Source: Chitinophagales bacterium (lineage in GTDB: Bacteria > Bacteroidota > Bacteroidia > Chitinophagales > Saprospiraceae). Taken from it: a stretch of 38,158 nt of DNA. The stretch is taken from positions 1 to 38,158 of the forward strand of contig JAAFJT010000045.1 of assembly GCA_013298955.1 (NCBI GenBank). Direction: 5' to 3'. The position numbers and the translations under genes were made by a program. The notes beneath the pieces were generated by a model that saw nothing but the letters and a program-made list of their open reading frames with translations, had not been told where the DNA came from and ran no database searches. This document shows, one piece after another, positions 2,261 through 18,889 of the stretch (the stretch's first letter is position 1; each line of letters begins with the position of its first letter).

Positions 2261-2371
2261 GTTCAATTGAAATAACCTATCCAAAAGGTCGGCGAGGTTG
2301 CAACCTCGCCGACCTTAATTCGATACGAATCAGTTGATTATCAACGATTTATATTTTGATAGTTTATTTTG
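2261..2371. repeat. Dispersed ~110-bp intergenic element, copy 1
   Basis: A stretch containing the perfect palindrome at 2285-2316 and AT-rich flanks. It recurs, with substitutions, downstream of the phosphatase gene at about 37618-37735. Shared landmarks in order are TTCAATTGAAA, ATCCAAAAGGTCGGCGAGGT, its inverse, then ...GATTATCAA..ATTTA.ATT.TGATAG.TTA.TT. The homology outside the palindrome shows that the whole block, not just a hairpin, was copied. Confidence 0.75.
2285..2316. terminator. Perfect 32-bp palindrome after the permease
   Basis: Two 16-bp arms (AAGGTCGGCGAGGTTG and its exact reverse complement) meet with no spacer, 34 nt after the permease stop. The GC-rich stem can serve as a terminator, though no long T-run follows. 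The same palindrome is present at 37643-37674. Confidence 0.7.
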
Positions 2372-2566
2372 CAGCAATTTCCGCTTTGAAAAAGTCGATA
2401 CAATTGGAACACGGATGACGCGGATTGGGCGAATTTTCACGGATTTTTTTCAATTAAATTGAAATTTTATTTTGAAATAAAATTTTGTATAAAACTAAAA
2501 AAAAATCCGTGAAAATCCGCCCAATCCGCGTCATCCGCGTTCCAATTGTAAAAGCGGAAATTGCTG
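2372..2566. repeat. Nested ~195-bp inverted repeat (CGGATT family)
   Basis: Three inverted repeats lie inside one another. The outer arms are CAGCAATTTCCGCTTT at 2372-2387 and its exact inverse at 2551-2566. The middle arms run from 2401 to about 2450 and from about 2499 to 2548, start CAATTGGAACACGGATGAC and are almost perfectly complementary over 50 bp. A small AT-rich inverted repeat fills the centre (about 2463-2487). The outer arms recur around a different core at 18726-18889, while the middle arms recur without these outer arms at 3546 and 8209. It lies between two plus-strand genes. Confidence 0.85.
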
Positions 2567-2623
2567 ACTTTACTTCTTTAAAATCATAATTTATTCATAA
2601 TCAATTAATTGTACAAACGTACC

Positions 2624-3523
2624 ATGAAAACCCTATTGACTACTGCCCTATTCGTTCAAGCCTTAACAATTGGTCTGGCGCAATTGCCGAATACCAATGT
2701 GTATCTTTTTTCCATGCAGAAAGCAGGTGATAATTTCACCTTTTACAACCCGCGTTTCCTAACGGGTTTCAACAAATATGGCTATAACAATCAACCTCAT
2801 TTTGTTACGAATAACGAAATTTATTTAACTGTTGGCTTCCCTGGTGAAAAAGGCAAAACGGATATTTACGCCTTATCGCTGTTGGATAATGTCAAAACGC
2901 AAATTACCGCAACAGGAGAATCCGAATATTCTCCTACGATTACGCCTGACCGCAATTTTGTATCTTGTGTTCGGGTCGATAAAGACAATGTGCAACGCGT
3001 GTGGAAATATCCATTAGATAGGTCAAGCAAAGGCGTACCCGTATTTCGTACGACCAAAGATGTGGGCTATCACTGTTGGTTAGATAATAAAAATTTGGCA
3101 CTTTTCATTTTAAAGGGAGAATCGAATTATTTAAAAATTGTTAATACAGACACAGAAGCATCCACTGATTTATCCACAGGGATTGGTCGCTCTTTGGTCA
3201 AATTACCGAATGAAAAATTAGGTTTCATCCATAAAGCGACGGATAAAGAGTGGTATGTAAAACAAATGGATGTACATTCATTTGGTTCTGAACGCATTGC
3301 GCAAACGCCGCCGAATAGTGAAGATTTTATTTGTCTTGGTGATGGAACGTTGATTATGGGACAGAGTGGCAAATTATACGCGTATAAACCTGGTAGTACA
3401 CAACAAGAATGGCGCGAAATTGCAGATTTACGTCCGTATGGGATTCAAAATATTAAAAGATTAGCGATAAGTAGAGAAGGCGATAAAATTGCATTGGTCA
3501 ATGATGTGACGGATGCTAAGTAA
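2624..3523 (+). CDS. Secreted TolB/WD40-like beta-propeller protein
   Basis: A 299-aa protein with a signal peptide (MKTLLTTALFVQALTIGLAQ) and blades resembling the PD40/TolB-type beta-propeller: repeated stretches such as DIYALSLLDNVKTQIT followed by SEYSPTITPDRNFVSCVRVD, where a residue list 'S.tpD.k.i.' alternates with W/Y-rich strands. It is probably periplasmic and may bind a protein or ligand; no catalytic residues are apparent. The frame opens at a TTG at 2609, but the ATG at 2624 gives a clean signal peptide, so I start there. It ends just before a 137-bp inverted repeat and faces the nupC-like gene. Confidence 0.8.
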   Translation: MKTLLTTALFVQALTIGLAQLPNTNVYLFSMQKAGDNFTFYNPRFLTGFNKYGYNNQPHFVTNNEIYLTVGFPGEKGKTDIYALSLLDNVKTQITATGESEYSPTITPDRNFVSCVRVDKDNVQRVWKYPLDRSSKGVPVFRTTKDVGYHCWLDNKNLALFILKGESNYLKIVNTDTEASTDLSTGIGRSLVKLPNEKLGFIHKATDKEWYVKQMDVHSFGSERIAQTPPNSEDFICLGDGTLIMGQSGKLYAYKPGSTQQEWREIADLRPYGIQNIKRLAISREGDKIALVNDVTDAK

Positions 3524-3545
3524 AGAGAAAAACATTTGATAAGCT

Positions 3546-3682
3546 ATACAATTGGAACACGGATGACACGGATTTTGCAGATTTACACGGATTTTTTTGA
3601 TTTTTACAGAAATTTAGAGCATATACTCTAAAAAAATCCGTGTAAATCTGCAAAATCTGCGTCATCCGCGTTCCAATTGTAT
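3546..3682. repeat. 137-bp inverted repeat, CGGATT family
   Basis: Arms of about 53 bp (3546-3598 and 3629-3682) begin ATACAATTGGAACACGGATG and end in T7/A7, with only a few mismatches and a loop of about 30 nt. The arms are themselves quasi-periodic: CGGAT or AGAT words recur every 8-11 bp. The element begins 22 nt after a stop codon and lies between convergent genes, so it can terminate transcription from both sides. Confidence 0.85.
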
Positions 3683-3714
3683 CCAAAATCACTCGCCGCA
3701 AAGTATAAATGCGT

Positions 3715-3747
3715 AACGTGCGTCAAGTTTGAAACTTGACGCACGTT
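3715..3747. terminator. Perfect 33-bp palindrome between convergent genes
   Basis: Two 16-bp arms (AACGTGCGTCAAGTTT and its inverse) flank a single G. It ends 21 nt before the stop codon of the minus-strand nucleoside transporter and is probably its terminator. The core AAGTTTGAAACTT resembles the AGGTT/AACCT and AGGGTTT/AAACCCT cores of other palindromes here, with different outer arm sequence. Confidence 0.7.
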
Positions 3748-3768
3748 CAGTTGCTGATTTTCAAATAT

Positions 3769-5043
3769 TTACATCAAAATACCTGCAATCGTTGCAGACA
3801 TATATGAAGCCAAAGTGCCTGCAATCAACGCTTTAAATGCCAATTTGGTTAAATCCGTTCTCCGACTTGGCTCTAAAGCACTAATCCCACCAATTTGAAT
3901 ACCCATAGAACCCAAATTTGCGAAACCACAAAGCGCAAAACTCACAATCGCAATGGTTTTTTGCGACATGGGATGTCCTGCAACCATCATTAACGCCTGT
4001 CCTGCTTCCGCTTTTACATATGGTGATAATTGACTATATGCAACAAATTCATTTGCAGCTAATTTCGTTCCCATCAAAGCTCCTGCGGTCACGATTTCGT
4101 CGCTTGGAACGCCCATACACCATGCAAAACCTGCAAAAAGATACCCCAAAACCAAGTCTAAACTCAGGTGAGGGAAACCTATCACACCGCCAATTTTACC
4201 CAATCCATAATTGAAAAAAGCGATTAATGCCAAAAAGCCAATCAGCATCGCTGCTACATTCAGCCCAATTTTCAATCCATCTGAGCAACCTGCTGAAATC
4301 GCATCTATCAAATTGGAGTGCATTTTGGCAACTTTTAATTTCACTTCGCCGCCCGTTTCCGATACTTCCGTTTCTGGAAACATGATTTTTGAAATCGCTA
4401 ACGCGCCCGGGGCTGCCATGATGCTTGCTGCCAATAAATATTTGGCAGGAACGCCAAAAGAGATATATGCCGCCATCACGCCGCCCGAGATACAGGCAAA
4501 ACTGCCTGCCATAGATGCCATTAATTCGCTTTGCGTCATGCCTTTCAAATAAGGCTTTATCATAATTTGAGCTTCGACCTGCCCGACAAACGCACTTGAA
4601 ATGTTGGATAATACTTCTGAGCCAGAGGCTTTCATTAAAAAATTCATACCGCGAGCGAGTTGCTGCACTATAAATTGAATAATCCCAAGATAATAGCCAA
4701 TATTCACTAAAACGGCAACAAATAAAATCGTCGGAATGATTTTAAAGAAAAAGATAAAACCACCCGCACCAAAGGCTTTGCCTACCGCAGGCACATTCAC
4801 TAAGGGACCAAATACAAAATCACCCCCAACTTGTGAAAAATCAATCACTTTATTGACAGCTCTGCCAATCCAATCAAAAATACTACTTCCAACCCTTGTT
4901 TTAAGAATGAAAATAGCAAAAATGAGTTGTAACAATAATCCTACACCAACCGTCCGATAGTTGATAGCACGGCGATTATTAGAAAGTAGGTACGCGACAC
5001 CTAAGATAAGGGCAATGCCCAAAAGTCCAGTAAATTGTTCCAT
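3769..5043 (-). CDS. nupC: NupC-type concentrative nucleoside transporter
   Basis: An inner-membrane nucleoside symporter of the CNT family, taking up nucleosides with H+ or Na+. The 424-aa product is of normal length, strongly hydrophobic, and carries the family signature GVPSDEIVTAGALMGTKLA.NEFVAY in the C-terminal half, followed by SFALCGFANLGSMGIQIGG. The frame is open from 5070, but the ATG at 5043 (MEQFTGLLGIALILG) fits the family, and a TACTTTTG -7-type box at 5068-5075 would put the transcript start downstream of 5070. The upstream region is exactly duplicated over 127 bp. The symbol denotes the family; the substrate range is not determined. Confidence 0.9.
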   Translation of the reverse strand: MEQFTGLLGIALILGVAYLLSNNRRAINYRTVGVGLLLQLIFAIFILKTRVGSSIFDWIGRAVNKVIDFSQVGGDFVFGPLVNVPAVGKAFGAGGFIFFFKIIPTILFVAVLVNIGYYLGIIQFIVQQLARGMNFLMKASGSEVLSNISSAFVGQVEAQIMIKPYLKGMTQSELMASMAGSFACISGGVMAAYISFGVPAKYLLAASIMAAPGALAISKIMFPETEVSETGGEVKLKVAKMHSNLIDAISAGCSDGLKIGLNVAAMLIGFLALIAFFNYGLGKIGGVIGFPHLSLDLVLGYLFAGFAWCMGVPSDEIVTAGALMGTKLAANEFVAYSQLSPYVKAEAGQALMMVAGHPMSQKTIAIVSFALCGFANLGSMGIQIGGISALEPSRRTDLTKLAFKALIAGTLASYMSATIAGILM

Positions 5044-5060
5044 GATGTTGAGTTTTAAAA

Positions 5061-5314
5061 AACAACTCAAAAGTAATAAAATTTATCTAAATGGTAGGGA
5101 TTCTTACAGGATAAGGGCATTTTGAGTATTTTTTATCCATAAACACAACGTATCCAACTTCGTATCCAACTTCGTATCCAACTTCGTAACAACTCAAAAG
5201 TAATAAAATTTATCTAAATGGTAGGGATTCTTACAGGATAAGGGCATTTTGAGTATTTTTTATCCATAAACACAACGTATCCAACTTCGTATCCAACTTC
5301 GTATCCAACTTCGT
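5061..5314. repeat. Exact 127-bp tandem duplication upstream of nupC
   Basis: Positions 5061-5187 and 5188-5314 are identical. The identity stops at the left edge and runs only one base past the right edge. Each copy carries the nupC -7 box and three 12-bp CGTATCCAACTT units. Two other exact duplications of period 127 lie at 11833 and 23617, so an assembly join artefact is the likeliest explanation. Confidence 0.9.
5068..5075 (-). promoter_or_regulatory. Putative -7 box of the nucleoside transporter
   Basis: The minus strand reads TACTTTTG, matching TAnnTTTG, about 25 nt upstream of the ATG at 5043. No convincing -33 TTG is seen. The same box recurs at 5195-5202 in the second 127-bp copy. 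Confidence 0.4.
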
Positions 5315-5347
5315 ATCCAACTTCGTATCCAACTTCGTATCCAACCG
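5149..5347. repeat. 12-bp tandem repeat CGTATCCAACTT
   Basis: Three units (5149-5184) in the first 127-bp copy, and five full units plus a variant sixth (5276-5347) in the second. The last unit runs directly into the palindrome at 5344. If the 127-bp duplication is an artefact, the real locus has a single array of about six or more units, and its true length is uncertain because the array is what the assembler stalled on. Confidence 0.85.
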
Positions 5348-5377
5348 TTTGGAGGGTTTTAAAACCCTCCAAACGGT
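5344..5377. repeat. Perfect 34-bp palindrome (AGGGTTTT family)
   Basis: Arms of 17 bp, ACCGTTTGGAGGGTTTT and its exact inverse, with no loop. Its right end seeds a 10-bp tandem repeat AAACGGTACG (5371-5400, three units). Relatives are at 29660, 32562, 34123 and 34687, and there is a half copy at 128. Confidence 0.8.
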
Positions 5378-5421
5378 ACGAAACGGTACGAAACGGTACG
5401 CTTCATGTCTGTATAAAATGC

Positions 5422-5453
5422 AAGTGGCTGCCCCTATTCAGAGACAGCCACTT
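5422..5453. terminator. Terminator of the nucleotidyltransferase gene
   Basis: A 9-bp stem AAGTGGCTG/CAGCCACTT with a 14-nt loop lies 23 nt beyond the minus-strand stop at 5476. On the minus strand it is followed by a short T-containing tract. Confidence 0.55.
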
Positions 5454-5475
5454 TGCAAAAAAAATCAAATGCTCA

Positions 5476-6405
5476 TTAGCGGTTACTTTCTACCTTTTCG
5501 CCTTGTGTAAGTTGATTAGGATATACGCCAATCGTCGTCAACGCCCAAAAAGCTTGTTGAACAACTTGTTTATCTTCTTGATACGTGATGCCATACCATT
5601 GGTCGCGGCTCGTCATCACGGTCAAATCCGCTTTGCCTGTTTGAATCATTTCATTGGCAATGCGTGGAATATAAAATTCTGCGGATGGATTGTGACCTTG
5701 CTCCGCAATGAATTGAACGAACATTTTGCGAGCAACTTCAAAGATTTTAGGTGAAAATCCCCAATAATTCATGGAAACAATCGTATCATCCGCCAAAGCG
5801 TGCTTTCCATGATGCTCATCGTAATAATAAATCTGCCCATTAGATTCCCGAATAATCTTAGTCCGTTCGGTCACAGATGTCAATAAATGATTGGAATCCG
5901 TTTCGCAAACGCCCCGACTCACAGAACCATTTTCAGATAAAGTGTTTTTCAACAAATAACCAACCATACCTAAATGTTTGGAATTACATTTTTTAGTTAA
6001 AAATTGCGCCATCTGACGGAAAGAATCATATCCGTAAAAATCATCTGCGTTGATAACCAAAAAAGGTTCATGAATCAAATCTCGCGCAACTAACATCGCA
6101 TGACCTGTACCCCAAGGTTTTTTACGTTCAGGAAATTTACTAATGCCTTCAATAGGGGTGTCAATTTCTTGAAATGCGTACTCAATTTTGATTTTTCCAT
6201 CAAATTTGCCCGCAAATTTTTCTTTAAAATCCGCTTCAATGCTTTTGCGGATGACAAAAACGACTTTGCCGAAACCTGCGCGAATGGCATCAAACACCGA
6301 ATACTCGATGATGGCTTCGCCGTTTGGACCAATGGAATCAGCTTGTTTCAAGCCGCCATAGCGACTGCCCATACCGGCAGCAAGGATTAAGAGGGTTGGC
6401 TTCAT
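5476..6405 (-). CDS. Sugar-phosphate nucleotidyltransferase-like protein
   Basis: A 309-aa cytoplasmic protein with the N-terminal nucleotide-binding signature of the NTP_transferase family: LILAAGMGSRYGGLKQADSI (residues about 5-24). The family joins an NTP to a sugar-1-phosphate, releasing pyrophosphate. VINADDFYGYDSF supplies the acidic metal/nucleotide-binding region, and GTGHAMLVARDLI resembles the usual G.A.A....... segment. The typical pairing with a phosphotransferase-type kinase for cell-surface sugar synthesis is not visible here: the neighbours are a nucleoside transporter and a sugar transporter. The specific sugar cannot be assigned. The start at 6405 gives a family-like N-terminus MKPTLLILAAG. 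Confidence 0.85.
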   Translation of the reverse strand: MKPTLLILAAGMGSRYGGLKQADSIGPNGEAIIEYSVFDAIRAGFGKVVFVIRKSIEADFKEKFAGKFDGKIKIEYAFQEIDTPIEGISKFPERKKPWGTGHAMLVARDLIHEPFLVINADDFYGYDSFRQMAQFLTKKCNSKHLGMVGYLLKNTLSENGSVSRGVCETDSNHLLTSVTERTKIIRESNGQIYYYDEHHGKHALADDTIVSMNYWGFSPKIFEVARKMFVQFIAEQGHNPSAEFYIPRIANEMIQTGKADLTVMTSRDQWYGITYQEDKQVVQQAFWALTTIGVYPNQLTQGEKVESNR

Positions 6406-6923
6406 AGAACCGTTATTTCAAGTGATAATCCTGCGTGTAAAATTCCATTTTTTGACACAGGCTATAATTGTTTGTTAAAAAGTATGGTTTTTTTGACACT
6501 TGAAAAAGTCAAGCGCGGCGCATTTTATCCGTAATGTTGACCAAGTATTCATGCATTTTCTAACTTAAAAGCGTTGAAAAAGCAGCTTAGATTTCTAAAA
6601 GCGCGTAACAGCGTTTAAGTGACTCTATTTATGCTGCAAATTACTTCAAAAAACGGTCACTTTGTTGAATCATTTTGCTGTTTTTGTAAAAACTGTGACA
6701 ACAATAATCGGCGACATAACAACATAAAATCATTTGTAAAAGTTCCTTCAAATGTAAAACATTAAAATAAAGTGGGCGCGAAATGTCGATTTTTCCTAAA
6801 AATTGGTTTAAAAGTTTCAGAATTAAAAAAAAAATTCGATTTTTGTCAAAATTAAGAACAATCCTTTTCATTCAACGGGATTTCAAATGGATGTGACCTC
6901 CTGAAATCTGAAAAATTCAACTT
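6406..6923. other. 518-bp divergent intergenic region
   Basis: It separates two divergently transcribed genes and must hold both promoters. It is AT-rich and holds no gene I would defend: the open frame at 6641-6871 (minus) has no plausible start context and low-complexity composition. I find no exact TTG-N19-TAnnTTTG promoter. It contains none of the long palindromes that occupy gene 3' ends. A weak inverted pair AAGTGAC/GTCACTT lies near 6617-6661. Confidence 0.5.
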
Positions 6924-8201
6924 ATGACAGCAACCAAATCGAATTACACGCAACAAATCACGATGATAGGGATTCTATTTTTCGTGTTTGGGTTGGTGAC
7001 ATGGCTCAATGGTATTTTAATTCCATTTTTAAAACTTTCTTGCCAACTGACAGACCAACAAGCGTTTTACGTCGCAACAGCGTTTTTTGCGGCGTATTTT
7101 TTCCTTGCGTTACCCGCTTCTGAGATTTTAAAACGTTTTGGGACGAAACAAGGGATGTCAATTGGTTTGGTGGTTATGGCAATTGGCTCTTTGATATTCA
7201 TTCCTGCGGCACAAAATCGCAGTTTTCCCTTGTTTTTGACGGGATTATTTGGACAAGGCATGGGGCTTGCGTTGTTACAAACGGCGGCAAATCCATATGT
7301 GAGCGTTATCGGTCCGATTGAATCGGCGGCGCGACGCATCAGTATTATGGGGATTTGCAATAAATTGGCGGGGATTTTAGGGAATCTTGTTTTTGGGGCG
7401 ATTTTATTAAAAAATGCAGACAAAATGGAGGCTCAAATCAATGCCGCCACAGATGTCATCGCTAAAAATCAATTATTAGACCAATTGGCGAGCCGTATTT
7501 TTTTGCCTTATGCAGGTTTAGCATTACTACTTTCGTTAATGGCAGTCTGGATTAATCGGTCTTCATTACCCAACATTACAGAACAAGTAAGTGAAAATGA
7601 CAATGCGTTAAGTGATGAAAAAAAGAGCCTTACGCAATATCCGCATGTATGGTTGGGCGCGTTAGCGATTTTCTTTTATGTAGGTGCAGAAGTCATGGCG
7701 GGCGATTTGATAACCGTTTATGGTAAAAACTTAGGTTTTACAGGCGACCAAAGCAAATATTTTACTTCTTTTGGTTTGATTGGTTTATTACTTGGTTACG
7801 TAGCGAGTATTTTTTTAATACCGCGTTATGTCAAACAAGAAATGTGGTTGTTAATTTCCACTCTTTTGGGCATGTTATTAACAGTTGCCTCTTATCTGAC
7901 AACGGGCGAAATGACGATTACCTGTTTAGCAGCATTGGGTTTTGCAAATGCAGTGATGTGGCCCGCGATTTTCCCATTGGGCATTCATGGTTTGGGCAAA
8001 TTAACGGATAGAGGTTCTGCGTTGCTCATCATGGGGATTGTGGGTGGTGCGCTGATTCCGCCTTTTTATGGCTGGCTCTATGGACAAGCAGGTTTGGGAC
8101 TTGATTTCCGTTCAGCATTTTTGGCGATTATGCTTGTTTGTTATGCGTATATTTTGTGGTTTGCCTTAGTGGGACACCGTATTGGAAAACAAAATAATTA
8201 A
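6924..8201 (+). CDS. MFS sugar transporter (FucP/GluP-like FHS family)
   Basis: A 425-aa inner-membrane major-facilitator protein with about 12 helices. The N-terminal helix FFVFGLVTWLNGILIPFLK and the segment GLALLQTAANPYVSVIGP are characteristic of the fucose/glucose-galactose:H+ symporter (FHS) family. The central loop (about 215-235) is charged and joins the two six-helix halves. Glucose, galactose or fucose are the likely substrates; sequence alone does not decide. It is preceded by a long intergenic region and followed by a 132-bp inverted repeat, so it is probably monocistronic. Confidence 0.9.
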   Translation: MTATKSNYTQQITMIGILFFVFGLVTWLNGILIPFLKLSCQLTDQQAFYVATAFFAAYFFLALPASEILKRFGTKQGMSIGLVVMAIGSLIFIPAAQNRSFPLFLTGLFGQGMGLALLQTAANPYVSVIGPIESAARRISIMGICNKLAGILGNLVFGAILLKNADKMEAQINAATDVIAKNQLLDQLASRIFLPYAGLALLLSLMAVWINRSSLPNITEQVSENDNALSDEKKSLTQYPHVWLGALAIFFYVGAEVMAGDLITVYGKNLGFTGDQSKYFTSFGLIGLLLGYVASIFLIPRYVKQEMWLLISTLLGMLLTVASYLTTGEMTITCLAALGFANAVMWPAIFPLGIHGLGKLTDRGSALLIMGIVGGALIPPFYGWLYGQAGLGLDFRSAFLAIMLVCYAYILWFALVGHRIGKQNN

Positions 8202-8208
8202 AAAACAA

Positions 8209-8340
8209 TACAATTGGAACACGGATGACACAGATTGGGCAGATTTACGCAGATTTTTTTATTTTATATGCAGTAATTTGAATGAAAATGAAAAATCCGC
8301 GAAAATCTGCCCAATCCGTGTCATCCGCGTTCCAATTGTA
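8209..8340. repeat. 132-bp inverted repeat, CGGATT family
   Basis: Third full member of the family at 2401 and 3546. It begins TACAATTGGAACACGGATGA, 8 nt after the transporter stop, and ends with the inverse 26 nt before coaD. The internal words (CAGATTGGGCAGATT) differ from the other copies while the outer 18 bp are constant. The two arms mostly pair, with some mismatches. It probably insulates coaD from upstream transcription. Confidence 0.85.
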
Positions 8341-8366
8341 CCCAATAAATATTATTAATTTTAAAT

Positions 8367-8834
8367 ATGACAAAAAAAATTTGTATATTTCCGGGTTCAT
8401 TCGACCCGATTACGACAGGGCATGTCGATTTAGTCAAGCGCGCTTTGCCCTTGTTTGATAAAATCATTGTTGCGGTTGGTATCAATACGCAAAAAAAATA
8501 CCTTTTCCCCATCGAACAGCGCATGGATTGGTTAAAAAAGGTATTTGCAGAAGACAAAAAAGTGCAAATTGACCAATATGAAGGATTAACAGCTCATTAT
8601 TGTCAGAAAGTAGGGGCGCATTATATTTTGCGGGGCTGTCGGCATGCGGCGGATTTTGATTACGAAAAAACCATTTCGCAATTAAATCACATTGTGGGCG
8701 GCGGTTTGGAGACGCTTGTGTTGATTGCGCAACCACAATATTCGCATATCAGTTCAACAATCGTGCGGGAAATTATTAAAGGAGGCGGCGATGCATCGCC
8801 TTTTATTCCAGCAATGGTTAAAATTAAACAATGA
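8367..8834 (+). CDS. coaD: Phosphopantetheine adenylyltransferase
   Basis: The 155-aa enzyme transfers AMP from ATP to 4'-phosphopantetheine to give dephospho-CoA, the penultimate step of coenzyme A synthesis in the cytoplasm. It shows the nucleotidyltransferase motif FPGSFDPITTGHVDLVKRA (the T/HxGH-type ATP site) near the N-terminus, LRGCRHAADFDYE for substrate binding and ISSTIVREI near the C-terminus. The length is normal for bacterial CoaD. Its stop overlaps the start of rlmH by 4 nt (ATGA), indicating translational coupling. The start follows the upstream inverted repeat by 26 nt. Confidence 0.97.
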   Translation: MTKKICIFPGSFDPITTGHVDLVKRALPLFDKIIVAVGINTQKKYLFPIEQRMDWLKKVFAEDKKVQIDQYEGLTAHYCQKVGAHYILRGCRHAADFDYEKTISQLNHIVGGGLETLVLIAQPQYSHISSTIVREIIKGGGDASPFIPAMVKIKQ

Positions 8835-9298: not shown

Positions 9299-9299
9299 T

Positions 9300-9355
9300 T
9301 TTATCGATACAATACAGATAATTTATCGATAAATTATCTGTATTGTATCGATAAA
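9300..9355. repeat. Perfect 56-bp palindrome after rlmH
   Basis: Two 28-bp arms, exact reverse complements with no spacer. The word TATCGATA occurs at both ends and ATCGAT sits at the centre. I see no copy elsewhere in the window. It starts 1-2 nt after the rlmH stop codon. It is AT-rich, so the hairpin is long rather than GC-strong. Confidence 0.9.
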
Positions 9356-9394
9356 TAGCATTTAAAATAACAATCTATTCAAAAATAAAAAAAT

Positions 9395-10033: not shown

Positions 10034-10067
10034 ATAAGTATTTTTCTAATTTCTAATTGAAATTAAA

Positions 10068-10742: not shown

Positions 10743-10774
10743 TTTTTAGGATACCTCTCTATTTACGCGAAAAA

Positions 10775-10800: not shown

Positions 10801-10850
10801 CATTTGAAAAAGATAAATGTATGTTCTATACTTAGAAACACCTTTTTGGG

Positions 10851-10875: not shown

Positions 10876-10883
10876 TTTCTTAT

Positions 10884-11957
10884 TTATTGAACGACTAATT
10901 TTTGCATTTTACCGTCCAATTTTACAAAGTACATGCCTTTTGCCAAATCCGATAAAATAACATGATCCGTTTCAAAACCATATTGAAGCAACTTCCCAGA
11001 TATATCAAAAATACCATACGACGCAACAGAACGCCCAAAAAATAACGTACCATTCGTTATTGGATTCGGATAAATCGGCGCAAATTGTGCTTTTTCAACC
11101 TCGCTCGCATCCGTACAAAGGTTGTATAAAATTGGATTATTCCTAAAATTGCCCCCAATTAACGCAGGGGAACCTGCCACTGGACGAAAATTCGGGGTCA
11201 CAGAACTTGCTAAGGGCTCCACTAAAACCGTTCCAGCCGTGAACGCAACAGGGTCAATATTGTTTGCCAAATCGCCTGTTTGACGCACCCAACTCGTTAT
11301 GGCAGTCAATTTATCATTACAACCTGCCGCCCGCGCAACTTCTGCCAATCCATTTGCGGTTGTATCGCCTGCGGTTGTGTAAGCCGCAGAAGTATTGAGA
11401 ATCAAGTTGTTAGCAAAAGAAACTTGTTTGGTTTGCAGGTCAACCGCACTATTTGGAGTCAATAACGCCAATGCTGCGGGATGATTCGTATTGCGCACCG
11501 AACTATCGCCGTCAATCATTACAAAATTGCGATAACCCATGAAAATACTGTTCACAATCCGCAAACTTGAATTCCGACGAATCCGCGCTCCCCGTCTGAA
11601 AGCCGCTTTGACCGTTGAACTGGCATTTGCATACGTCGAACCAACGGGAATCGCGCCAATCATCGTATAATTTGAAAAAATGGCACTCGTATAAGGTTTC
11701 ACTGACGCAGTACCTGTTGCTTCATTGTCACTTTCAAAACCTTCGGACGTAGATGCGCCCGATGCAGCATTATAGGTCAAATCGTAATAACTGGAATCCC
11801 GAACGCCAATACCAAATTGATTCAAACCATTGAAACCATTATCCGTATCAAAATCGTCATCAGTGGTTTTCCACGAAATTAAATGTGTCGAATTGACCGT
11901 TCCACCAAACCATTCAAAAGAATCATCGCCCGAAAAAGACACTTGAACATGATTCAA
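10884..11957 (-). CDS. Type IX secreted protein, C-terminal part
   Basis: This is the downstream portion of one gene whose upstream portion is at 11923-12828. The frame changes inside an exact 127-bp duplication. If one copy is removed, the reading frame runs uninterrupted from 12828 to 10884 and gives about 605 aa. This part holds parallel beta-helix-like repeats (DSFEWFGGTVN, DDDFDTDNG, RDSSYYDL) and ends with a type A sorting domain: YPNPITNGTLFF ... GIFDISGKLL ... GMYFVKLDGKMQKLVVQ, the signal for export through the outer-membrane T9SS and surface attachment. The apparent start at 11957 is internal, not a true start. Confidence 0.8.
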   Translation of the reverse strand: MNHVQVSFSGDDSFEWFGGTVNSTHLISWKTTDDDFDTDNGFNGLNQFGIGVRDSSYYDLTYNAASGASTSEGFESDNEATGTASVKPYTSAIFSNYTMIGAIPVGSTYANASSTVKAAFRRGARIRRNSSLRIVNSIFMGYRNFVMIDGDSSVRNTNHPAALALLTPNSAVDLQTKQVSFANNLILNTSAAYTTAGDTTANGLAEVARAAGCNDKLTAITSWVRQTGDLANNIDPVAFTAGTVLVEPLASSVTPNFRPVAGSPALIGGNFRNNPILYNLCTDASEVEKAQFAPIYPNPITNGTLFFGRSVASYGIFDISGKLLQYGFETDHVILSDLAKGMYFVKLDGKMQKLVVQ

Positions 11958-12086
11958 TTAAACCATTATCCGTATCAAAATCGTCATCAGTGGTTTTCCA
12001 CGAAATTAAATGTGTCGAATTGACCGTTCCACCAAACCATTCAAAAGAATCATCGCCCGAAAAAGACACTTGAACATGATTCAATT
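11833..12086. repeat. Exact 127-bp tandem duplication breaking a gene
   Basis: 11833-11959 and 11960-12086 are identical, with mismatches immediately outside both ends. 127 is not a multiple of three, so it shifts the frame of the type IX secreted protein and truncates the N-terminal part. Removing one copy restores a single 605-aa frame. The identical period at 5061 and 23617 points to an assembly artefact. Confidence 0.95.
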
Positions 12087-12828
12087 CGGTACCAACGCCT
12101 ACTGCACCCAATGTTAAACCATTAATTTCTTTATTGGGTTCAAAGGCTAAACCACCAAATTCAAGTCGTAAGTAACGAATTATTCCAGAATTATCATTGG
12201 GGTCGGTTCCACCAAAACGCGCTAAGGTTGCGTCAAAAGTTACATTATTGAAACCTTCCATTTGTACATTGTTGTTATCCGCACCGTTCAGCAAATTGTG
12301 TGGTGCTTTACCCGCAATCACCAAACCGCCCCAATCGCCCCTATCTCGCGTCGCAACCGATTTTGCAGAAGTGATGACAACAGGATTTGTAGCCGTACCT
12401 GTAATTTCAATCTTGCCACCGCGTTCCACAACAATACTTGCATAGTTTTTAGGCGTAACGGTCGCATCCGCAATTGCCCGAATCACCGTTCCCGCAGGAA
12501 TGACCAATTTCCCGCCCGAACGAACGATGACAAATCCTTTTAATAAATAGGTTTTGGTCGCATCTAAGGTCAATGTGCCTGAAATATCTTTTTCACCCAC
12601 GATTGGCAAATTGCTTAACATTCCATTCAAGGTTGTGGTATCATTTGGTTCCGCATAAGCGGTATTTTTGGGGTTAAAATTCGTCCAACCTGTTGTCCAA
12701 TCGTCCGCCGCCGTTGCTGATAATGCGCCTACATAACTCGTGGTTTTAAGCTTTGTAACACAATTTGTTTGAGCCGACATCGGTGCAATGAAAGAAAACG
12801 CACAAAAAAGGTGTAAAAAATTTTTCAT
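11923..12828 (-). CDS. Type IX secreted protein, N-terminal part
   Basis: The upstream portion of the gene continuing at 10884. MKNFLHLFCAFSFIAPMSAQ is a clear signal peptide, which sets the start at 12828 rather than the open frame's 12894. The mature region has the beta-helix-like pattern LTLDATKTYLLKGFVIVRSG, then AGTVIRA, ASIVVERGGKIEITGTATNP, then DWGGLVIAGKAP and GGTDPNDNSGIIRYLRLEF. I recognise this as a Bacteroidota surface protein of unknown function often encoded beside a TonB receptor. The last 14 residues (from LIESCSS) are out-of-frame translation caused by the duplication. It lies downstream of the receptor gene, separated by a hairpin. Confidence 0.8.
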   Translation of the reverse strand: MKNFLHLFCAFSFIAPMSAQTNCVTKLKTTSYVGALSATAADDWTTGWTNFNPKNTAYAEPNDTTTLNGMLSNLPIVGEKDISGTLTLDATKTYLLKGFVIVRSGGKLVIPAGTVIRAIADATVTPKNYASIVVERGGKIEITGTATNPVVITSAKSVATRDRGDWGGLVIAGKAPHNLLNGADNNNVQMEGFNNVTFDATLARFGGTDPNDNSGIIRYLRLEFGGLAFEPNKEINGLTLGAVGVGTELNHVQVSFSGDDSFEWFGGTVNSTHLISWKTTDDDFDTDNGLIESCSSVFFGR

Positions 12829-12886
12829 TTTAAAATTTATTGTTTGATAAATTAATTGAATGTAATTGGATGAATACTTTTTATTA

Positions 12887-12949
12887 TGGGACACGAATTT
12901 GACGAATTTTCACGAATCCGTATCACCATTCGTGAAAATTCGTGTCCCA
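12887..12949. repeat. 63-bp inverted repeat, CACGAATT type
   Basis: The arms begin TGGGACACGAA and pair across a small loop, with a 9-nt insertion (about 12898-12906) in the left arm that is itself a repeat of the ACGAATT word. The word periodicity resembles the CGGATT family, although the sequence differs. It lies just after the receptor stop at 12970 and about 60 nt upstream of the start at 12828. Confidence 0.75.
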
Positions 12950-12969
12950 AATCGTTGATAATCAGCGTT

Positions 12970-15699
12970 TTAAAAATTGTAAGTAAAATTTAATGCGCCG
13001 GTAAAACCATTGTTATATTTAAACATTAATCTATCGCTACTTACGTTATAGTTGCCATTCAAATCCGAATCTTGATAAAAAACCAAATCTTGATGTAACA
13101 AATCGCCTATCGTTAATTTCAAATTAAACTTTTTAAAATTCTTACCGACTTGGAAATCAATCACTGAACGCGGATTTTCATAAATGTCTTGACGCGTTGC
13201 GCCATATTTCGCATCAACTCCTACATACGCAATCCGACGACCCACGCGATTCATCACAAGGCTACCCGACCAACCATTTTCGGAATTATCATATTGCAAA
13301 CCAGCATTGATAATGTAAGGCGATTGACCTTGCAACGGGCGATTCAATTGCGCTTGTGTACCCGCATCGAAAGTCAAAACCGATTTCATCAAAGACAAAT
13401 TTGAAAAAATAGCAATATTTTTAAAACAATTGTTTGGATTAATAAAATCTAAACTTTTTCGCATTTCCAATTCGACACCATATATAGTAGCCGATTTTTC
13501 ATTGCGGAACGTGAAGGTCGTAAACGGTTGCGTCACATCAATACTCATTTCAATTGGGTTTTGAATCGTTTTGTAGAAACCGCCAACCGAAATAATTTGA
13601 TTTCCCGTTAAAAAATATTCCGCACGAGCGTCAAAATGATTCAATTCCGCGATTTGCAAACTATTATTGCCCCGAATTTCTGCATTTTTGTCGAAAACGA
13701 AGAATGCAAACGGTGCTAATTCCCGAAATTCAGGACGATTAACGGATTTGTAATACGCTGCCCGAAGGTTTATCTTTTCAGTCAAATAGTAAGTCGCATT
13801 CACAGAAGGCAACAATACACCTTTATTAATTGCCGCAATATTTTGAACGGTCGTCGGATTGCTCACGTTTAAATCCATTGTTTCGTAACGCAAACCGTAA
13901 ACTGCCCGCCATTTTTCACCATATTTTTGATCCGCCATCAAATAACCTGCATGCAACGTAGATTTGCCATCGTAATTATCCAAATCTTTGGAAGTCTTCT
14001 CAACCAAATATAATTTCGATGCACCGATATTATTGCTGCCCAAATCTTTTGCAGGGTCGTAAGTCAATTCGCCAATCACACCATTATAAACAAAACTCCG
14101 CGCCGCAAAATGCCGATTCCGAGATTGTAAGAAGTAACCCGCTTTAATATCAATTTTGGTCTTATCAAAATTTAAAGATTTGGTTCCTTCAACGTTGCCA
14201 CCCAAAATATTTTCGGTTAAATCAGACGTAAATCTGCCAGAACTTGATTTGAAAAAATCGCCCGCAGGTAACATATAGTATTCAAAATCAGGCGTTTTCG
14301 TATAACTAACAATTCTATAATCAGGCATTCTACGTCGGATGCTTGAGAAATTCAACGCGCCTATTACCGTAAAACCATTATCCAAAATCTGTTTTGCCGA
14401 AAGAATGCTATTGTATAAACGGTTGTATTGAATCATATTCGTCGTGCTTTGAACCGTCAACGCATCTGAAATATTACCAGTACCTGTTCGCTGAATCGTG
14501 CTATTATCGGTATTGATATTCAATAAGTTACGAAAATTCACTTGTGTTTTTCCCGCCATATAACTCACATTGAACAAGCCGCCACTACTAATATTTTGTT
14601 GGAAATGGTTATCTTGTAAAGCAGCCACTTGTCCAGAACCATCATACGTATTCAAACTATTTGTTCCAGCTTTGCGCGTATTTGCGTAGTTGAGCGCGAA
14701 CAAAACACCTAATTTTTGATTATCGGGCAGGCGAATCGGCAAACCTAATGAATAACCCAATCGCGTATTTGGCGTTGCATTCGAGGTCGTGCTCGACCAA
14801 TCATTGTTAAATTGTTGTGAAAGCGAAGCCAATTTATCTTTATTTCCAATCAATGCATCCGTTGGAATGTCCCGTTGCGCACTTACAAAGTTCAAATTTT
14901 CACCAGAATATATTTTAAATTGTGTAAACGGTTTAAAAGTCGTCAAAGAATGGTACTGAGTACCAATCGTTAATGATTGCGTTTTTTCTTCTGGAACGGC
15001 TTTAGTATTGATTTTGATGATACCGCCGCCAAAATCACCCACCAAATCAGGCGAACCCGACTTAATAATGGACAAATTATCAATCAAATTGGCAGGAACG
15101 ACATCAAATGCAAAGGCTTTTCTATCGGATTCCGTCGAAGGCAACAACGCGCCATCCAAATAACCCGCATTATAACGGTCGTTCATGCCGCGAATAATCG
15201 CAAATTTATTATCTTGAATTGAAGCACCCGTCACGCGCTTCAATACGTCGGAAGTCGTGCGGTCAGGTGTTTTTCTAATTTGGTCTGACGAAACACCATC
15301 GGATAATTGAGATGCTTTTCGGCGTTCAATCATCATCGCCACTGCCGTTGAACGCTCCACTTTTGCCGTAACGACGACTTCTGCAATCACATTTTTGGAT
15401 TCTGCTAAAACTTGATTCAAATAAGTCGTTTCATTTTCCTTAATCGTGACCTGAATTTTTGTAGTCTCATAAGAAATAAAACTAATAACAATTGTATAAG
15501 CTCCAGGTGCTAACGGAAGATTATAATTGCCATCCATATCTGTAATAGTGCCATTTGTCGTATTTTCAACGACGATTGCGGCTCCGAGTAATGCTTCTCC
15601 ATTTGCTTTATCAGTGATTTTTCCTGCGAGTTGACTTTGCGCAACGACGCTTAAAATCAATAAAAAACTAAAAATGGTTGTAAAAACGAACTGCTTCAT
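12970..15699 (-). CDS. TonB-dependent outer-membrane receptor
   Basis: A 909-aa energised outer-membrane transporter. In order: signal peptide (MKQFVFTTIFSFLLILSVVAQ), a carboxypeptidase-regulatory-like domain (about 23-105: LAGKITDKANGEALLGAAIV ... TDMDGNYNLPLAPGAYTI), a plug domain (about 125-235, with RVTGASIQDNKFAIIRGMNDRY and VGDFGGGIIKINTK), then the beta-barrel to the C-terminal aromatic strand GALNFTYNF. No SusD partner adjoins it, so it is not a classic polysaccharide locus. The type IX secreted protein downstream is likely its functional partner. The ligand is unknown. Confidence 0.95.
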   Translation of the reverse strand: MKQFVFTTIFSFLLILSVVAQSQLAGKITDKANGEALLGAAIVVENTTNGTITDMDGNYNLPLAPGAYTIVISFISYETTKIQVTIKENETTYLNQVLAESKNVIAEVVVTAKVERSTAVAMMIERRKASQLSDGVSSDQIRKTPDRTTSDVLKRVTGASIQDNKFAIIRGMNDRYNAGYLDGALLPSTESDRKAFAFDVVPANLIDNLSIIKSGSPDLVGDFGGGIIKINTKAVPEEKTQSLTIGTQYHSLTTFKPFTQFKIYSGENLNFVSAQRDIPTDALIGNKDKLASLSQQFNNDWSSTTSNATPNTRLGYSLGLPIRLPDNQKLGVLFALNYANTRKAGTNSLNTYDGSGQVAALQDNHFQQNISSGGLFNVSYMAGKTQVNFRNLLNINTDNSTIQRTGTGNISDALTVQSTTNMIQYNRLYNSILSAKQILDNGFTVIGALNFSSIRRRMPDYRIVSYTKTPDFEYYMLPAGDFFKSSSGRFTSDLTENILGGNVEGTKSLNFDKTKIDIKAGYFLQSRNRHFAARSFVYNGVIGELTYDPAKDLGSNNIGASKLYLVEKTSKDLDNYDGKSTLHAGYLMADQKYGEKWRAVYGLRYETMDLNVSNPTTVQNIAAINKGVLLPSVNATYYLTEKINLRAAYYKSVNRPEFRELAPFAFFVFDKNAEIRGNNSLQIAELNHFDARAEYFLTGNQIISVGGFYKTIQNPIEMSIDVTQPFTTFTFRNEKSATIYGVELEMRKSLDFINPNNCFKNIAIFSNLSLMKSVLTFDAGTQAQLNRPLQGQSPYIINAGLQYDNSENGWSGSLVMNRVGRRIAYVGVDAKYGATRQDIYENPRSVIDFQVGKNFKKFNLKLTIGDLLHQDLVFYQDSDLNGNYNVSSDRLMFKYNNGFTGALNFTYNF

Positions 15700-16029
15700 G
15701 CTGAATGAGTTTGATTAAATAATGGTGCAAAGTTCCGTTCCGAATGTTAACTGCACATTAAATCAGCATTAAGTAATTGTTAAGTTATGTTTAATCGTTT
15801 AAACCACGACTTTTCAAAAAAAATTAAGGAAGGCAAAGTATATAACCTAAGTTGCGCGGTAGGCGGCTTCGCTGCCCAGAAAGAGAGAGAGATAAGGGGC
15901 GTGTGTGTATTGTTTTTAAAATTTTGCTTCGCAAAATTTTAAAAACAATACACACACGCCCCTTAAAAAACTTTTTGCCGCCGTAGGCGGCTTCGCCGCG
16001 CAACTTGGGTTATTTTTAAAATAAGACGT
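15700..16029. other. Intergenic region: receptor promoter area and terminator
   Basis: The first 140 bp (15700-15841) should hold the receptor promoter. A GAACTTTG-like box on the minus strand near 15731-15738 differs from TAnnTTTG at its first base, so I do not call it. The remainder is the nested inverted repeat at 15842-16013. Confidence 0.5.
15842..16013. repeat. Nested ~172-bp inverted repeat with a perfect 34-bp-arm core
   Basis: The outer arms ATAACCTAAGTTGCGCGG (15842-15859) and their near-perfect inverse (15996-16013, one mismatch) enclose a core of two perfect 34-bp arms (15894-15927 and 15931-15964) around a TTC loop. Two smaller hairpins between them (around 15861-15875 and 15984-15998) also close on TTC (GGC-TTC-GCT, GGC-TTC-GCC). 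It lies between the receptor start and the ribonuclease Z remnant's stop at 16030, and is probably the terminator of that operon. Confidence 0.9.
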
Positions 16030-16404
16030 TTAACGTTTTAACAAAACCCCATACGTCTGTCCATCTATGCCTAAAACCGTATTAGGAAATACACTACGCG
16101 CTTCCTCTAATATTGGATTTAAATCAATATATCGACTCGAATAATGTCCTTCCGTTCTACCCGCCATCGCCATAGACGTTAACAGCCCTGCCAAACCAAA
16201 AATATGGTCTCCATGTAAGTGCGTGATAAAAATATTTCTTATTTTATTTTTGCGAATTTGAAACTCCTGCATGCGAAATTGAGTCCCTTCCCCGCAATCT
16301 ATCAAAAATAATTGTTCCTGAATGTTCAAAACTTGGGCTGATAACCAACGATTGTTCGCAGGTACAGCCGCATTAGAACCCAATATCGTTAATTCAAATT
16401 TCAT
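16030..16404 (-). pseudogene. rnz: Ribonuclease Z with large internal deletion
   Basis: Ribonuclease Z, a metallo-beta-lactamase-fold endonuclease, trims tRNA 3' ends and is usually about 300 aa. Here only 124 aa remain. Residues 1-84 match the normal N-terminus, including LGSNAAVPANNR, DCGEGTQFRMQ and the metal motif THLHGDHIFGLAGLL. Directly after GRTE the sequence continues with the normal C-terminal GHYSSRYIDLNPILEEARSV. About 180 central residues, with the remaining metal ligands and the flexible arm, are missing in frame. The product is almost certainly not an active nuclease. It is the last gene after the two membrane proteins, 18 nt downstream. A real deletion or a misassembly are both possible. 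Confidence 0.85.
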
Positions 16405-16422
16405 ATAAAATTATTTTAAATC

Positions 16423-17583
16423 CTAAAATTCACTACTCGCTCCTCCCCCACCCGTGTCGCCGCCACCGAATGTTACGCCTGTGTTTTCAGGGGTTTGTTG
16501 CGTTTTTAAAATTTGGCTTACGACCAATGTTTCTAATAAATTATTTTTATGGGCTATTGCTTCATCTGAAAACCCCCATTTGGGCGTTTTGAGTTGTCGA
16601 ATTAAAAAAATAGATAATCCTATTAATAACGCTCCACTTAGCGTTAAAGCAACTTCTGATGGCATCACAGAATAATAACACCTGTACGTAGCAATGGAAA
16701 ACAACATACATAATAACGATATTATCAAAAACTTACGTTCTCTCAAATGATGTGCAGCATATAAATACAAGATAGGTATGGTTATCGTAAAAAACCAAAA
16801 AAGAAAGGCAAACGGAATTTGAACCGATGGATATTGATTTTCTAAGTTCGCACTACATTCGCGCACCACCCAATAATTGCCCCCAGCATAAAAACCAACC
16901 AATGCAACCGTTTCCAATAAATCTGCGGCATCATGCCAATAAAAATAACCATTATTTTGTTTTAACTGCCTTGAAGCCAAACCAATAATCGCCCAATAAA
17001 GCATCGTTGCGAAAGGCAAAATGGCTTTCCCAAAAGGAAATTTTGCCAAAATCAAAAATAACAACGCATTCAACGAGCCTGCCAAAAAAACACTTAAAAA
17101 AACATCGCCATATCGCCATGCTGCTATACCTATAATCAAACTCGTTAGGCTCACATTTGCAATGGAGAAATCCGTAAAATGGAATAGCAGTACCAAACTG
17201 ATATTCAGAGAAAAACAAGCTGTATAAATTAAAGCGTTATCCGTTCCTGCCCTATATAATTTCTGATTACTGAAATTATCCAAATTTTCGATAAATAAAA
17301 ACAGTATCAACGATAGAATCAATTGAGCGAAGCCTATAACGCGCTCATCACCCTTAAAAAGTAATTCGCCAAACAGGAGTGCCAAAATGCCTTCAATGAA
17401 AAATATCACAAATGTCGTAAAAATAAATAGCCCAATTTTGACAAAAGGATTCGATTGATAAAAGTCAGATGGGAAGGCTTGTTTCGTATTTTTTAATTGC
17501 TCATCCGTCAACATGCCTTCTGTATGCAAATCAGACGCGCCTGCTTGAATTTGTTCGTTAAAAACAGATTGTTTGTTATACAT
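16423..17583 (-). CDS. DUF4401-like multispanning membrane protein
   Basis: A 386-aa inner-membrane protein with about ten hydrophobic helices from residue 45 to 340. The soluble N-terminus has the short LTDEQLKN helix seen in this group. The C-terminus ends GVTFGGGDTGGGGASSEF, a glycine-rich tail like those that end some TPM-domain membrane proteins. The pairing with a DUF2157-like protein immediately upstream (15-nt gap) is typical of these families, whose function is unknown. It is probably co-transcribed with the genes at 17599 and 16030. The family name is from general resemblance, not a search. Confidence 0.8.
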   Translation of the reverse strand: MYNKQSVFNEQIQAGASDLHTEGMLTDEQLKNTKQAFPSDFYQSNPFVKIGLFIFTTFVIFFIEGILALLFGELLFKGDERVIGFAQLILSLILFLFIENLDNFSNQKLYRAGTDNALIYTACFSLNISLVLLFHFTDFSIANVSLTSLIIGIAAWRYGDVFLSVFLAGSLNALLFLILAKFPFGKAILPFATMLYWAIIGLASRQLKQNNGYFYWHDAADLLETVALVGFYAGGNYWVVRECSANLENQYPSVQIPFAFLFWFFTITIPILYLYAAHHLRERKFLIISLLCMLFSIATYRCYYSVMPSEVALTLSGALLIGLSIFLIRQLKTPKWGFSDEAIAHKNNLLETLVVSQILKTQQTPENTGVTFGGGDTGGGGASSEF

Positions 17584-17598
17584 GATTTTAGGGTTGGT

Positions 17599-18549
17599 TT
17601 AAGAATGTACGTTGAGTATTTTTTTATAATTTGTAAAAAACAAAACAATCGCAAAACAAGATGCAAAACCATAATAAATGATCCCGCTGGCATTGTTCAA
17701 CGAGCTCAACAAAACATAAGTTGTCCCGATATAGCCATAAATAACACCCATCAGCAAGAATAAATGAGAGCCTGTTTTTCTTGCATACCAAACGAATGTC
17801 ATACATAAAGGCATCATTATCAACCAAAACCATTTGCTATGGGCAAAAGTAGCCGCCAAACTCGCTATTACCGCCAGATTGCCGCCCAGCATATAATACG
17901 AGTAACTAAAATGGGCTTTTATATTTTTTATTTCGGAAAATACTCCAATTGCAATTAAAAATAGCCCAATACCAATGGCTGACCAAACTAAATGAATGTT
18001 TGAAAAATCATTTTTCGTTATATCTAACGGGGCAATCGTCAAACCTGCCCAAGTTGCTAACGCCGTCATTGCCATCGTCAAAACGCCTTTATGGTCAAAA
18101 CGATAAGCCGCTAAAAAAAACAAAAGAGCTGGAATGAAGGTTGCCAACCCATATTTTGTTCCAAAAATTTGATATTGATATTGTAAATAACCTTCTAAAA
18201 TCAGAAAAGTCATGCAACTCAATAACAAGGCATAATCTGCAAAAGTGCTCGGATTTTGAATCGCGCCATCCGTATAAGGTTGTCGTTTAGAATACGCAAA
18301 CGCACCCGTTACAAGACTGACAAGCGCAATTAAAGCTATAATTGCTTGGTGTCCAATGGTATCAATATGTTTGTAAATCAACATACCAAGTCCACCACAA
18401 AAAAGGCTAATCCCCGAAAGCAGCATCAAACGCAATTCTGAATGCACCGAAAGGGGGCGGTTTTCTATATGCGTTTGCGCAGCATCTCGTTGAGGCACGT
18501 CGATAATCGCTTTTTCAAGCAAATGGTTTAAAATATTTTTAAGAGTCAT
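17599..18549 (-). CDS. DUF2157-like multispanning membrane protein
   Basis: A 316-aa inner-membrane protein with a short soluble N-terminal helix (LLEKAIIDVPQRDAAQTHIE) followed by about ten helices from residue 40 onward. The layout (N-terminal cytoplasmic helix, then paired hydrophobic helices) resembles DUF2157 proteins, which commonly adjoin DUF4401 proteins as here. There is no catalytic motif and the function is unknown. It is first in a three-gene minus-strand unit. A promoter candidate lies at 18587-18618, about 30 nt from the ATG. Confidence 0.8.
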   Translation of the reverse strand: MTLKNILNHLLEKAIIDVPQRDAAQTHIENRPLSVHSELRLMLLSGISLFCGGLGMLIYKHIDTIGHQAIIALIALVSLVTGAFAYSKRQPYTDGAIQNPSTFADYALLLSCMTFLILEGYLQYQYQIFGTKYGLATFIPALLFFLAAYRFDHKGVLTMAMTALATWAGLTIAPLDITKNDFSNIHLVWSAIGIGLFLIAIGVFSEIKNIKAHFSYSYYMLGGNLAVIASLAATFAHSKWFWLIMMPLCMTFVWYARKTGSHLFLLMGVIYGYIGTTYVLLSSLNNASGIIYYGFASCFAIVLFFTNYKKILNVHS

Positions 18550-18586
18550 CTTGGTTTTAAGTAAAAAATTGGAGTATGGAGTAAAT

Positions 18587-18618
18587 CAAGGTTAAAGATA
18601 ATCTTTTTGAAACACAAA
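18587..18618 (-). promoter_or_regulatory. Putative promoter of the DUF2157-DUF4401-rnz unit
   Basis: On the minus strand TTTG (18618-18615), a 20-bp spacer and TAACCTTG (18594-18587) match the Bacteroidota -33/-7 arrangement with one mismatch in the -7 box. The -33 box lies inside the left arm of the inverted repeat at 18611-18689. Confidence 0.5.
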
Positions 18619-18689
18619 AGGCACAATATTGATAAAATCAATACAAAATTTTGTTGTATTCATTTTACCAGTATCATGCCTTTTGTGTT
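18611..18689. repeat. 79-bp imperfect inverted repeat
   Basis: The arms AACACAAAAGGCA... (18611 onward) and their inverse (ending 18689) pair over about 36 bp with several mismatches. It lies between sucC's 3' end and the next minus-strand promoter. It is followed by GATTATCAAC and an AT-rich stretch homologous to 2333-2371. Confidence 0.75.
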
Positions 18690-18725
18690 GATTATCAACA
18701 CATTGCAAATATATGTTTTATTTTA

Positions 18726-18889
18726 CAGCAATTTCCGCTTTGGAAAATTCTTGAAATAGGATGCTGGTGATTTCAAGGATTTTAAGGATATTTTCAGATG
18801 AATATCGCAAATTTTAACTAAAAAGCTCCTTTTTATCCTTCAAATCATAAGCATCCTATTTCAAAAATTTCCAAAGCGGCAATTGCTGT
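18726..18889. repeat. 164-bp inverted repeat abutting the sucC stop
   Basis: The outer arms, from ACAGCAATTTCCGCTTTGGA (18726) and ending in the inverse at 18889, pair with small gaps for about 40 bp. The inner part (AAGGATTTTAAGGATATTTT against a TCC-rich inverse) pairs more loosely. The right end touches the sucC stop codon (18890-18892). The outer 16 bp are the same as those at 2372-2387, but the core is unrelated. Confidence 0.85.

Follow-up and report, generated by a model that had tools for sequence, protein, structure and literature searches.

The window analysed here, the whole stretch of 38,158 nucleotides that makes up positions 1 to 38,158 of contig JAAFJT010000045.1 (assembly GCA_013298955.1, Chitinophagales bacterium, Saprospiraceae), carries two palindromic elements bounded by the same outer arm and filled by different cores. 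They belong to a family for which a MITE-like nature, with transposition of either core between the same ends, is well supported and which is in this respect an ordinary kind of element. The unusual aspects are that two fully palindromic cores occur between identical ends and that there are hybrids with a second family. The initial annotation had proposed that one outer arm encloses two different cores, and both are present where it placed them, at 2372-2566 and 18726-18888. It had extended the second element to 18889; the arm and the AAGGAT core lie there as described, but base 18889 belongs to a flanking duplication and the element ends at 18888.

The outer arm, which we call TIR1, comprises about 22 bases (CAGCAATTTCCGCTTTGGAAAA) with ends CAG...CTG; TIR1 and TIR2, A, B, D, X, Y and loop types 1 and 2 are all labels coined in this analysis. 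The genome searched consists of 4,684,908 bases (4.68 Mb) in 204 contigs. Allowing up to one mismatch, a search for the 16-base outer arm CAGCAATTTCCGCTTT gave 73 places, of which a hand count puts 39 as exact matches; the pattern written backwards, used as a control, gave none. Chance is therefore excluded as the source of the likeness, and the proposed collection of all arm copies with their cores did not bring it down to chance level. All 73 places were inspected with their surroundings (53 regions and the window) and the elements were classified by reading. They correspond to 55 elements, about 33 with core A (AAGGAT), 19 with core B (CGGATT), one of which is a remnant (L035), and three that are core-less (L022, L033 and L045). 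A script tally gave 31 A, 19 B and five elements without a recognised core, and two of these five are a shortened A core (L025) and an element cut by a contig end after A-like sequence (L058). Among the core-less forms, L022 is a 27-base palindrome of outer arms alone and L033 and L045 are imperfect. These forms could be ancestral, or could have arisen by deletion between the GGAAA repeats present at both ends.

Mobility is indicated by a direct repeat of 9 bp lying flush with the ends: of 33 distinct complete elements 18 have it, in exact form in 13 (the second left arm of L046, at 1563, was not counted separately). When flanks of different elements were paired as a control, the mean was 0.37 exact and 0.66 near-exact repeats, with a maximum of 4, and among repeat lengths of 5 to 12 bp only 9 bp was enriched, lengths 5-8 and 10-12 showing no excess. 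The duplication accompanies both core classes, 11 of 23 for A and 7 of 10 for B, with classes set by reading each element and the core of L039 taken as A. For 26 B elements lacking both TIR1 and TIR2, the best count at any offset tried was a single such repeat, against a shuffled mean of 0.92. The outer arm is thus a terminal inverted repeat associated with target duplications, and the units are transposable elements, a point absent from the initial annotation. They are also short and multi-copy, with complete elements of 137-308 bp among the 55, and the duplication has a fixed length. In 15 of the 33 complete elements, including that at 2372 with its differing flanking 9-mers TTTATTTTG and ACTTTACTT, the duplication is missing. 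Age is one reason for this and recombination between copies is another; the prediction of the latter is not proved by the six pairings in which the left 9-mer of one element agrees with the right 9-mer of another at 8/9 or more, since four of these come from three elements that lie in a single hairpin type.

Table 1. Features of the window; positions are those of the whole stretch.
Feature	Position	Strand	Basis or remark
TIR1/TIR1 element with core B (CGGATT)	2372-2566		both arms exact; no 9-bp duplication
Left TIR1, exact	2372-2387	+	arm sequence match
Right TIR1, exact	2551-2566	-	arm sequence match
Core B, 52-nt arms 96% complementary, loop type 1 inside	2399-2550		palindrome and loop reading
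TIR1/TIR1 element with core A (AAGGAT)	18726-18888		arms and perfect duplication
Left TIR1, exact	18726-18741	+	arm sequence match
Right TIR1, one mismatch	18873-18888	-	arm sequence match
9-bp target duplication TTTATTTTA, left copy	18717-18725		perfect repeat flush with 18726-18888 element
9-bp target duplication TTTATTTTA, right copy	18889-18897		perfect repeat flush with 18726-18888 element
Family D repeat adjoining the 2372 element, contains linker 2333-2371	2252-2369	+	match to D
Complete family D repeat, arms AAGTAGTTCAA...CAACTACTT, GGCGAGG hairpin, dyad; third linker	37614-37741	+	match to D
Dyad GTTGATTATCAAC, beyond it 15/27 like family D	18687-18699		comparison with D consensus
Core B with TIR2 arm at right side only (3685-3707)	3546-3707		arm search
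Core B without TIR1 and without TIR2	8209-8340		arm search

Consensus ends of A and B elements are identical for 23 bases and then diverge. Core A is almost never seen apart from TIR1 or remnants of it; by reading, C128:65973 is an exception, with neither. Core B is abundant, an 18-base stretch of its arm being present at 563 places in the genome (at most two mismatches), and it constitutes a reusable module found within TIR1, within a second arm, TIR2 (TATACTTTGCGTCGGGTGGTTTTG), or without either. In a 762-kb sample, where 45 of 47 B elements were counted after exclusion of one short and one false row, TIR1 stood on both sides of four, TIR2 on both sides of six, one of each at two, an arm on one side only at seven, and neither at 26. 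The corresponding numbers for a wider set of 99 B elements, partly picked by the TIR1 and TIR2 searches, are 13, 29, 2, 14 and 41. The loops are linked to the arms: loop type 1 is carried by 12 of the 13 TIR1/TIR1 elements and by none of the 29 TIR2/TIR2 elements, and loop type 2 by 22 of the 29 and by none of the 13. When the B cores were placed on a quick tree, for which no shuffled control is given, the TIR1/TIR1 and TIR2/TIR2 rows need a single change, and 19 changes are needed once unarmed and one-armed rows are included. Linkage and tree together fit a model in which TIR1 ends captured B once and the product later spread, though two old lineages would give the same picture.

Exceptions to this linkage are informative. 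Three hybrids (L038, L049 and L059) carry one TIR1 and one TIR2 arm; L038 combines TIR1, loop 1 and a TIR2 variant, L049 combines TIR1, loop 2 and a TIR2 variant, and in L027 a TIR2 element with loop 1 is situated within a TIR1-A element. Read in this way, arms and loops have evidently recombined. The TIR2 elements gave no 9-bp duplication by eye in 20 pairs, and their ends, TATAC..GTATA, are compatible with a TA duplication, which is unproved. The earlier view that these elements are mosaics of interchangeable palindromic parts is borne out by the TIR1 arms shared around two cores, by B within at least two outer arms, by the three hybrids and by the three core-less forms.

The initial annotation had further described a linker shared at 2333, 18690 and in the 37.6-kb element. 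This holds for two of the three sites: the bases after the dyad agree with the family D consensus at 24/27 for the stretch at 2334 and 22/27 for that at 37692, and the linkers at these sites are therefore homologous. At 18687 the likeness is weak beyond the common dyad, with only 15/27 further bases in common with D for the stretch at 18688, compared with 22-24 for six clear D copies. In the 762-kb sample 12 of 248 dyads reach 15/27, six of those 12 being D copies, which places the 18688 stretch at the tail of the background; it has a 38-base dyad-to-arm distance in common with the D-linked case and, as judged from these alignments, is probably not a D copy. The linker is not a part of the element. 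Its place is beyond the duplication, and where the homology is genuine (2333 and 37.69 kb) it is an arm of the palindromic family D. The linker at 2333-2371 is the right arm of a D repeat that is apparently interrupted by the 2372 element, so that the D arm is here the insertion target. Three TIR1 elements (window 2372, L014 and L040) occupy an identical position in the D arm, two bases beyond GATAG(T/C)TTATTT, and L040 has an exact duplication, CGAAATAAG. That the dyad might belong to a Bacteroidota promoter, with the consensus TAnnTTTG coming after it, found no support, there being 2 to 5 matches, at most one of them aimed at a gene start.

We consider it likely that the TIR1 elements are non-autonomous and MITE-like and that a putative transposase with a 9-base stagger moved either palindrome, B having been captured, the composite having spread and the hybrids having arisen by recombination or template switching. 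The enzyme would move whole TIR1-bounded units with any palindrome inside, inserting them mostly into intergenic DNA, with core A as the most common cargo. Core B, which is plentiful outside TIR1 and occurs in TIR2 too, would have been acquired by TIR1 ends, probably in a single event, either by insertion or by core exchange. After the capture the TIR1-B composite would spread, and recombination or template switching between palindromes with common B arms would later yield the TIR1-B-TIR2 hybrids. The transposase, the capture and its place in this order, and the route to the hybrids are what we infer; the ends, the duplications for both cores, the copy numbers, the hybrids and the loop-arm linkage are observed. 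Given the duplication lengths generally known for IS families, the 9-base stagger presumably points to a DDE transposase. The assembly yielded no match to the five families searched (PF01797, PF01609, PF00872, PF13358 and PF00665). Some contigs break off within or next to such repeats (L014, L036 and L058), so that a multi-copy parent could have dropped out of the assembly, and loss of repeat contigs is a possible cause of its absence.

Exchange between palindromes might also have done most of the work, with outer arm, CGGATT middle arm and loop as modules that recombine or switch template via common arms, helped by occasional insertion at axes, and transposases only spreading the combinations. 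This is a possibility that we hold tentatively. It draws on G125, a genome of another genus of the family, where the CGGATT middle arm occurs with other outer arms, and on family D, where hairpins are swapped between like arms: six GGAGGG, five GGCGAGG and one GTCAAG in 12 rows, of which two GGCGAGG rows overlap, with no duplication signal in the same rows. Mosaics here may thus not need the TIR1 transposase. Conversion between the two arms of a single copy was considered but not adopted as the main mechanism, the excess being small in core B and absent from core A and TIR1. A different emphasis makes nesting mainly a matter of insertion at the axes of other palindromes, the outer palindrome being an interrupted target and B having entered the middle of a small TIR1 palindrome such as the core-less, 27-bp L022. 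Rebuilt TIR1 targets do pair at 10/14 or better around the insertion point in 5 of 33 cases, against 2.6% of 20,000 random intergenic draws, and at 12/14 in 3 of 33 against 0.8%; 2 of 20 TIR2 elements also lie at such axes, and foreign palindromic DNA interrupts core A in three elements (L018, L027 and L057). Palindrome axes are therefore favoured, yet most insertions are elsewhere: 28 of the 33 targets are non-palindromic, three of the five palindromic ones (L031, L032 and L048) represent one hairpin type, GCGTCAAGTTT/AAACTTGACGC, the target hairpin of L039 being GGAGGGTTTT/AAAACCCTCC, B has no 9-bp duplication at its own ends, and core-less forms have the alternative origin by deletion given above. 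We regard this emphasis as unlikely to be correct.

It is very improbable that the elements are ordinary transcription terminators, or RNA hairpins under selection, whose likeness results from function and not mobility. Their location speaks for such a role, most TIR1 elements being intergenic with a median distance of 65 bp to a 3' end, and the two window elements are predicted to fold strongly, at -112 and -75 kcal/mol. However, 39 exact 16-mers and the 9-bp duplications need copying, and TIR1-A arms are no more similar within a copy than between copies (0.807 and 0.801). Only for the arms of core B, at 0.890 within and 0.844 between copies (permuted maximum 0.864), is there room for a pairing constraint or conversion, and single copies may have a secondary use as terminators. 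Rough ORF calls put 3 of 32 TIR1 arms inside ORFs; for placement between divergent genes two counts disagree (0 of 32 arms and 4 of 33 elements), and so no claim is made on divergent promoters. Around 18889 the right copy of TTTATTTTA overlaps the stop codon of the minus-strand ORF 18890-20107. Searches of the window gave no Rfam match and no tRNA gene. Least probable of all is that these are REPINs or BIME-like repeats mobilised by a Y1 transposase of the RAYT type. The mosaic structure, the intergenic position of the palindromes and their high copy number are in its favour, but PF01797 is absent from the assembly, although the same search was positive in 5 of 14 control genomes, and the TIR1 elements have 9-bp duplications; Y1 enzymes are not known to produce target duplications, nor are REP and REPIN sequences known to carry them.

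Comparison with relatives shows different distributions for the two modules. A TIR1 21-mer (at most two mismatches) matched 12 of 199 genomes of the family, at 90 places in this genome and one place in each of the other 11, and was absent from G001, the other genome of the genus compared; by this measure TIR1 is private to this genome among the 199. A 21-base B motif at the same threshold had a patchy distribution and matched 20 of the 199, with 553 places here, 115 in G125 and 44 in G019, and none in G001. The 18 loci read in G125 have different arms, X and Y, around the CGGATT core: X/X in three, X/Y or Y/X in seven, and X with an unrecognised or unresolved opposite side in eight. Viral contigs gave no exact match to the TIR1 21-mer or to a B-core 25-mer. 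A TIR1 18-mer matched 36 stretches in named genomes, one match each and scattered over unrelated phyla, and these were read as chance. In the open-licence literature, a scope that cannot show the elements to be unpublished, three CGGATT strings were absent from the text, and related repeats were found but not these elements, nor any account of nested palindromic Bacteroidetes MITEs with a transposase or of Saprospira intergenic palindromes.

Several known systems resemble the TIR1 elements in part. In PMC10969869, type II prokaryotic MITEs such as Chunjie of Geobacter show parent likeness confined to the ends and share with the TIR1 elements a length under 500 bp, terminal inverted repeats, an intergenic location, many truncated copies, and direct repeats in those copies that are younger. 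The TIR1 ends differ in holding two unrelated, fully palindromic cores and in forming hybrids with another family, and no parent has been found. In Porphyromonas gingivalis, BrickBuilt and further MITEs likewise place different interiors between terminal repeats that are identical or almost so, and nesting is mentioned (PMC4596501). Their ends correspond to IS5-family elements present in that genome and the interior is a tandem repeat, whereas TIR1 insides are palindromic and the duplications a constant 9 bp. The pneumococcal BOX, RUP and SPRITE are also modular composites with mutual insertion, some near gene ends, but the passages of PMC3049150 consulted do not include core exchange between common palindromic shells, and the sequences in those passages are unrelated. 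ISRm22 inserts at the axis of palindromy of REP, and its unmatched direct repeats are ascribed, in the part of PMC1525189 concerned, to recombination between copies. Such REP-targeting IS elements share both traits with the TIR1 elements, but few TIR1 targets are palindromic and TIR1 elements carry no gene.

The elements indicate that palindromic non-autonomous elements can swap their insides and keep their mobile ends, with hybrid intermediates still readable in one genome. Should exchange via common palindromic arms prove to be general, it would account for the resemblance of many long palindromes in such genomes to recombinations of a few parts.

The second outer arm, TIR2, which surrounds the CGGATT palindrome (core B), was located at 118 places across the genome when up to three mismatches were allowed, and nearly all of the TIR2 pairs inspected (n=20) enclosed core B. 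The elements end in TATAC..GTATA and, judged from these termini, a TA duplication would be allowed. In another Saprospiraceae genus (genome G125, loci L283, L289 and L291), the loops of some CGGATT elements carry an extra repeat sequence, CACAAATTGC.CAAATTT.CACAAATT, adjoined by CGCCTGCGGCG-like stretches.

Family D, a separate palindromic repeat family that includes the linker of the initial annotation at 2333-2371 and in the 37.6-kb element, carries at least three different hairpins between like arms (AAGTAGTTGAA...). A short hairpin of type CGTTTGGAGGGTTTTAAAACCCTCCAAACG occurs at five sites in the window and is also present within family D copies located elsewhere.

Repeat features and their locations
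Feature	Window positions	Elsewhere
TIR2, TATACTTTGCGTCGGGTGGTTTTG	3685-3707	
Family D	2252-2369; 37614-37741	contigs C1, C112, C128, C139, C161
Dyad TTGATTATCAA	2333-2345; 18687-18699	genome-wide
Short hairpin	5344; 29661; 32561; 34123; 34687	
Palindromes, perfect or near-perfect, arms 28-36 nt	9300-9355; 15893-15965; 28030-28096; 31810-31881	
Tandem duplications, period exactly 127 nt	5061-5314; 11828-12081; 23617-23870	

An additional palindrome family with GTTTGAATTAGGATTTTTAGGATT arms, found on contigs C1, C112, C128, C139, C150 and C161, differs from the AAGGAT (core A) and core B palindromes, yet is likewise GGATT-rich. The long-armed palindromes listed lie within, or at the edges of, intergenic stretches and show no clear relatives within the window. 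The tandem duplications occur at three mutually unrelated places, and we suspect that they are k-mer artefacts of the assembler.

The dyad, a short symmetrical motif at the start of the linker, is strongly over-represented, with 73 occurrences in a 762 kb sample of this genome versus 1 from first-order Markov sequence, and 32 of the 73 fall in intergenic DNA (about 118 kb). It is centred in a wider symmetrical motif, TAA...ATTGATTATCAAT...TTA, and may represent a binding site.
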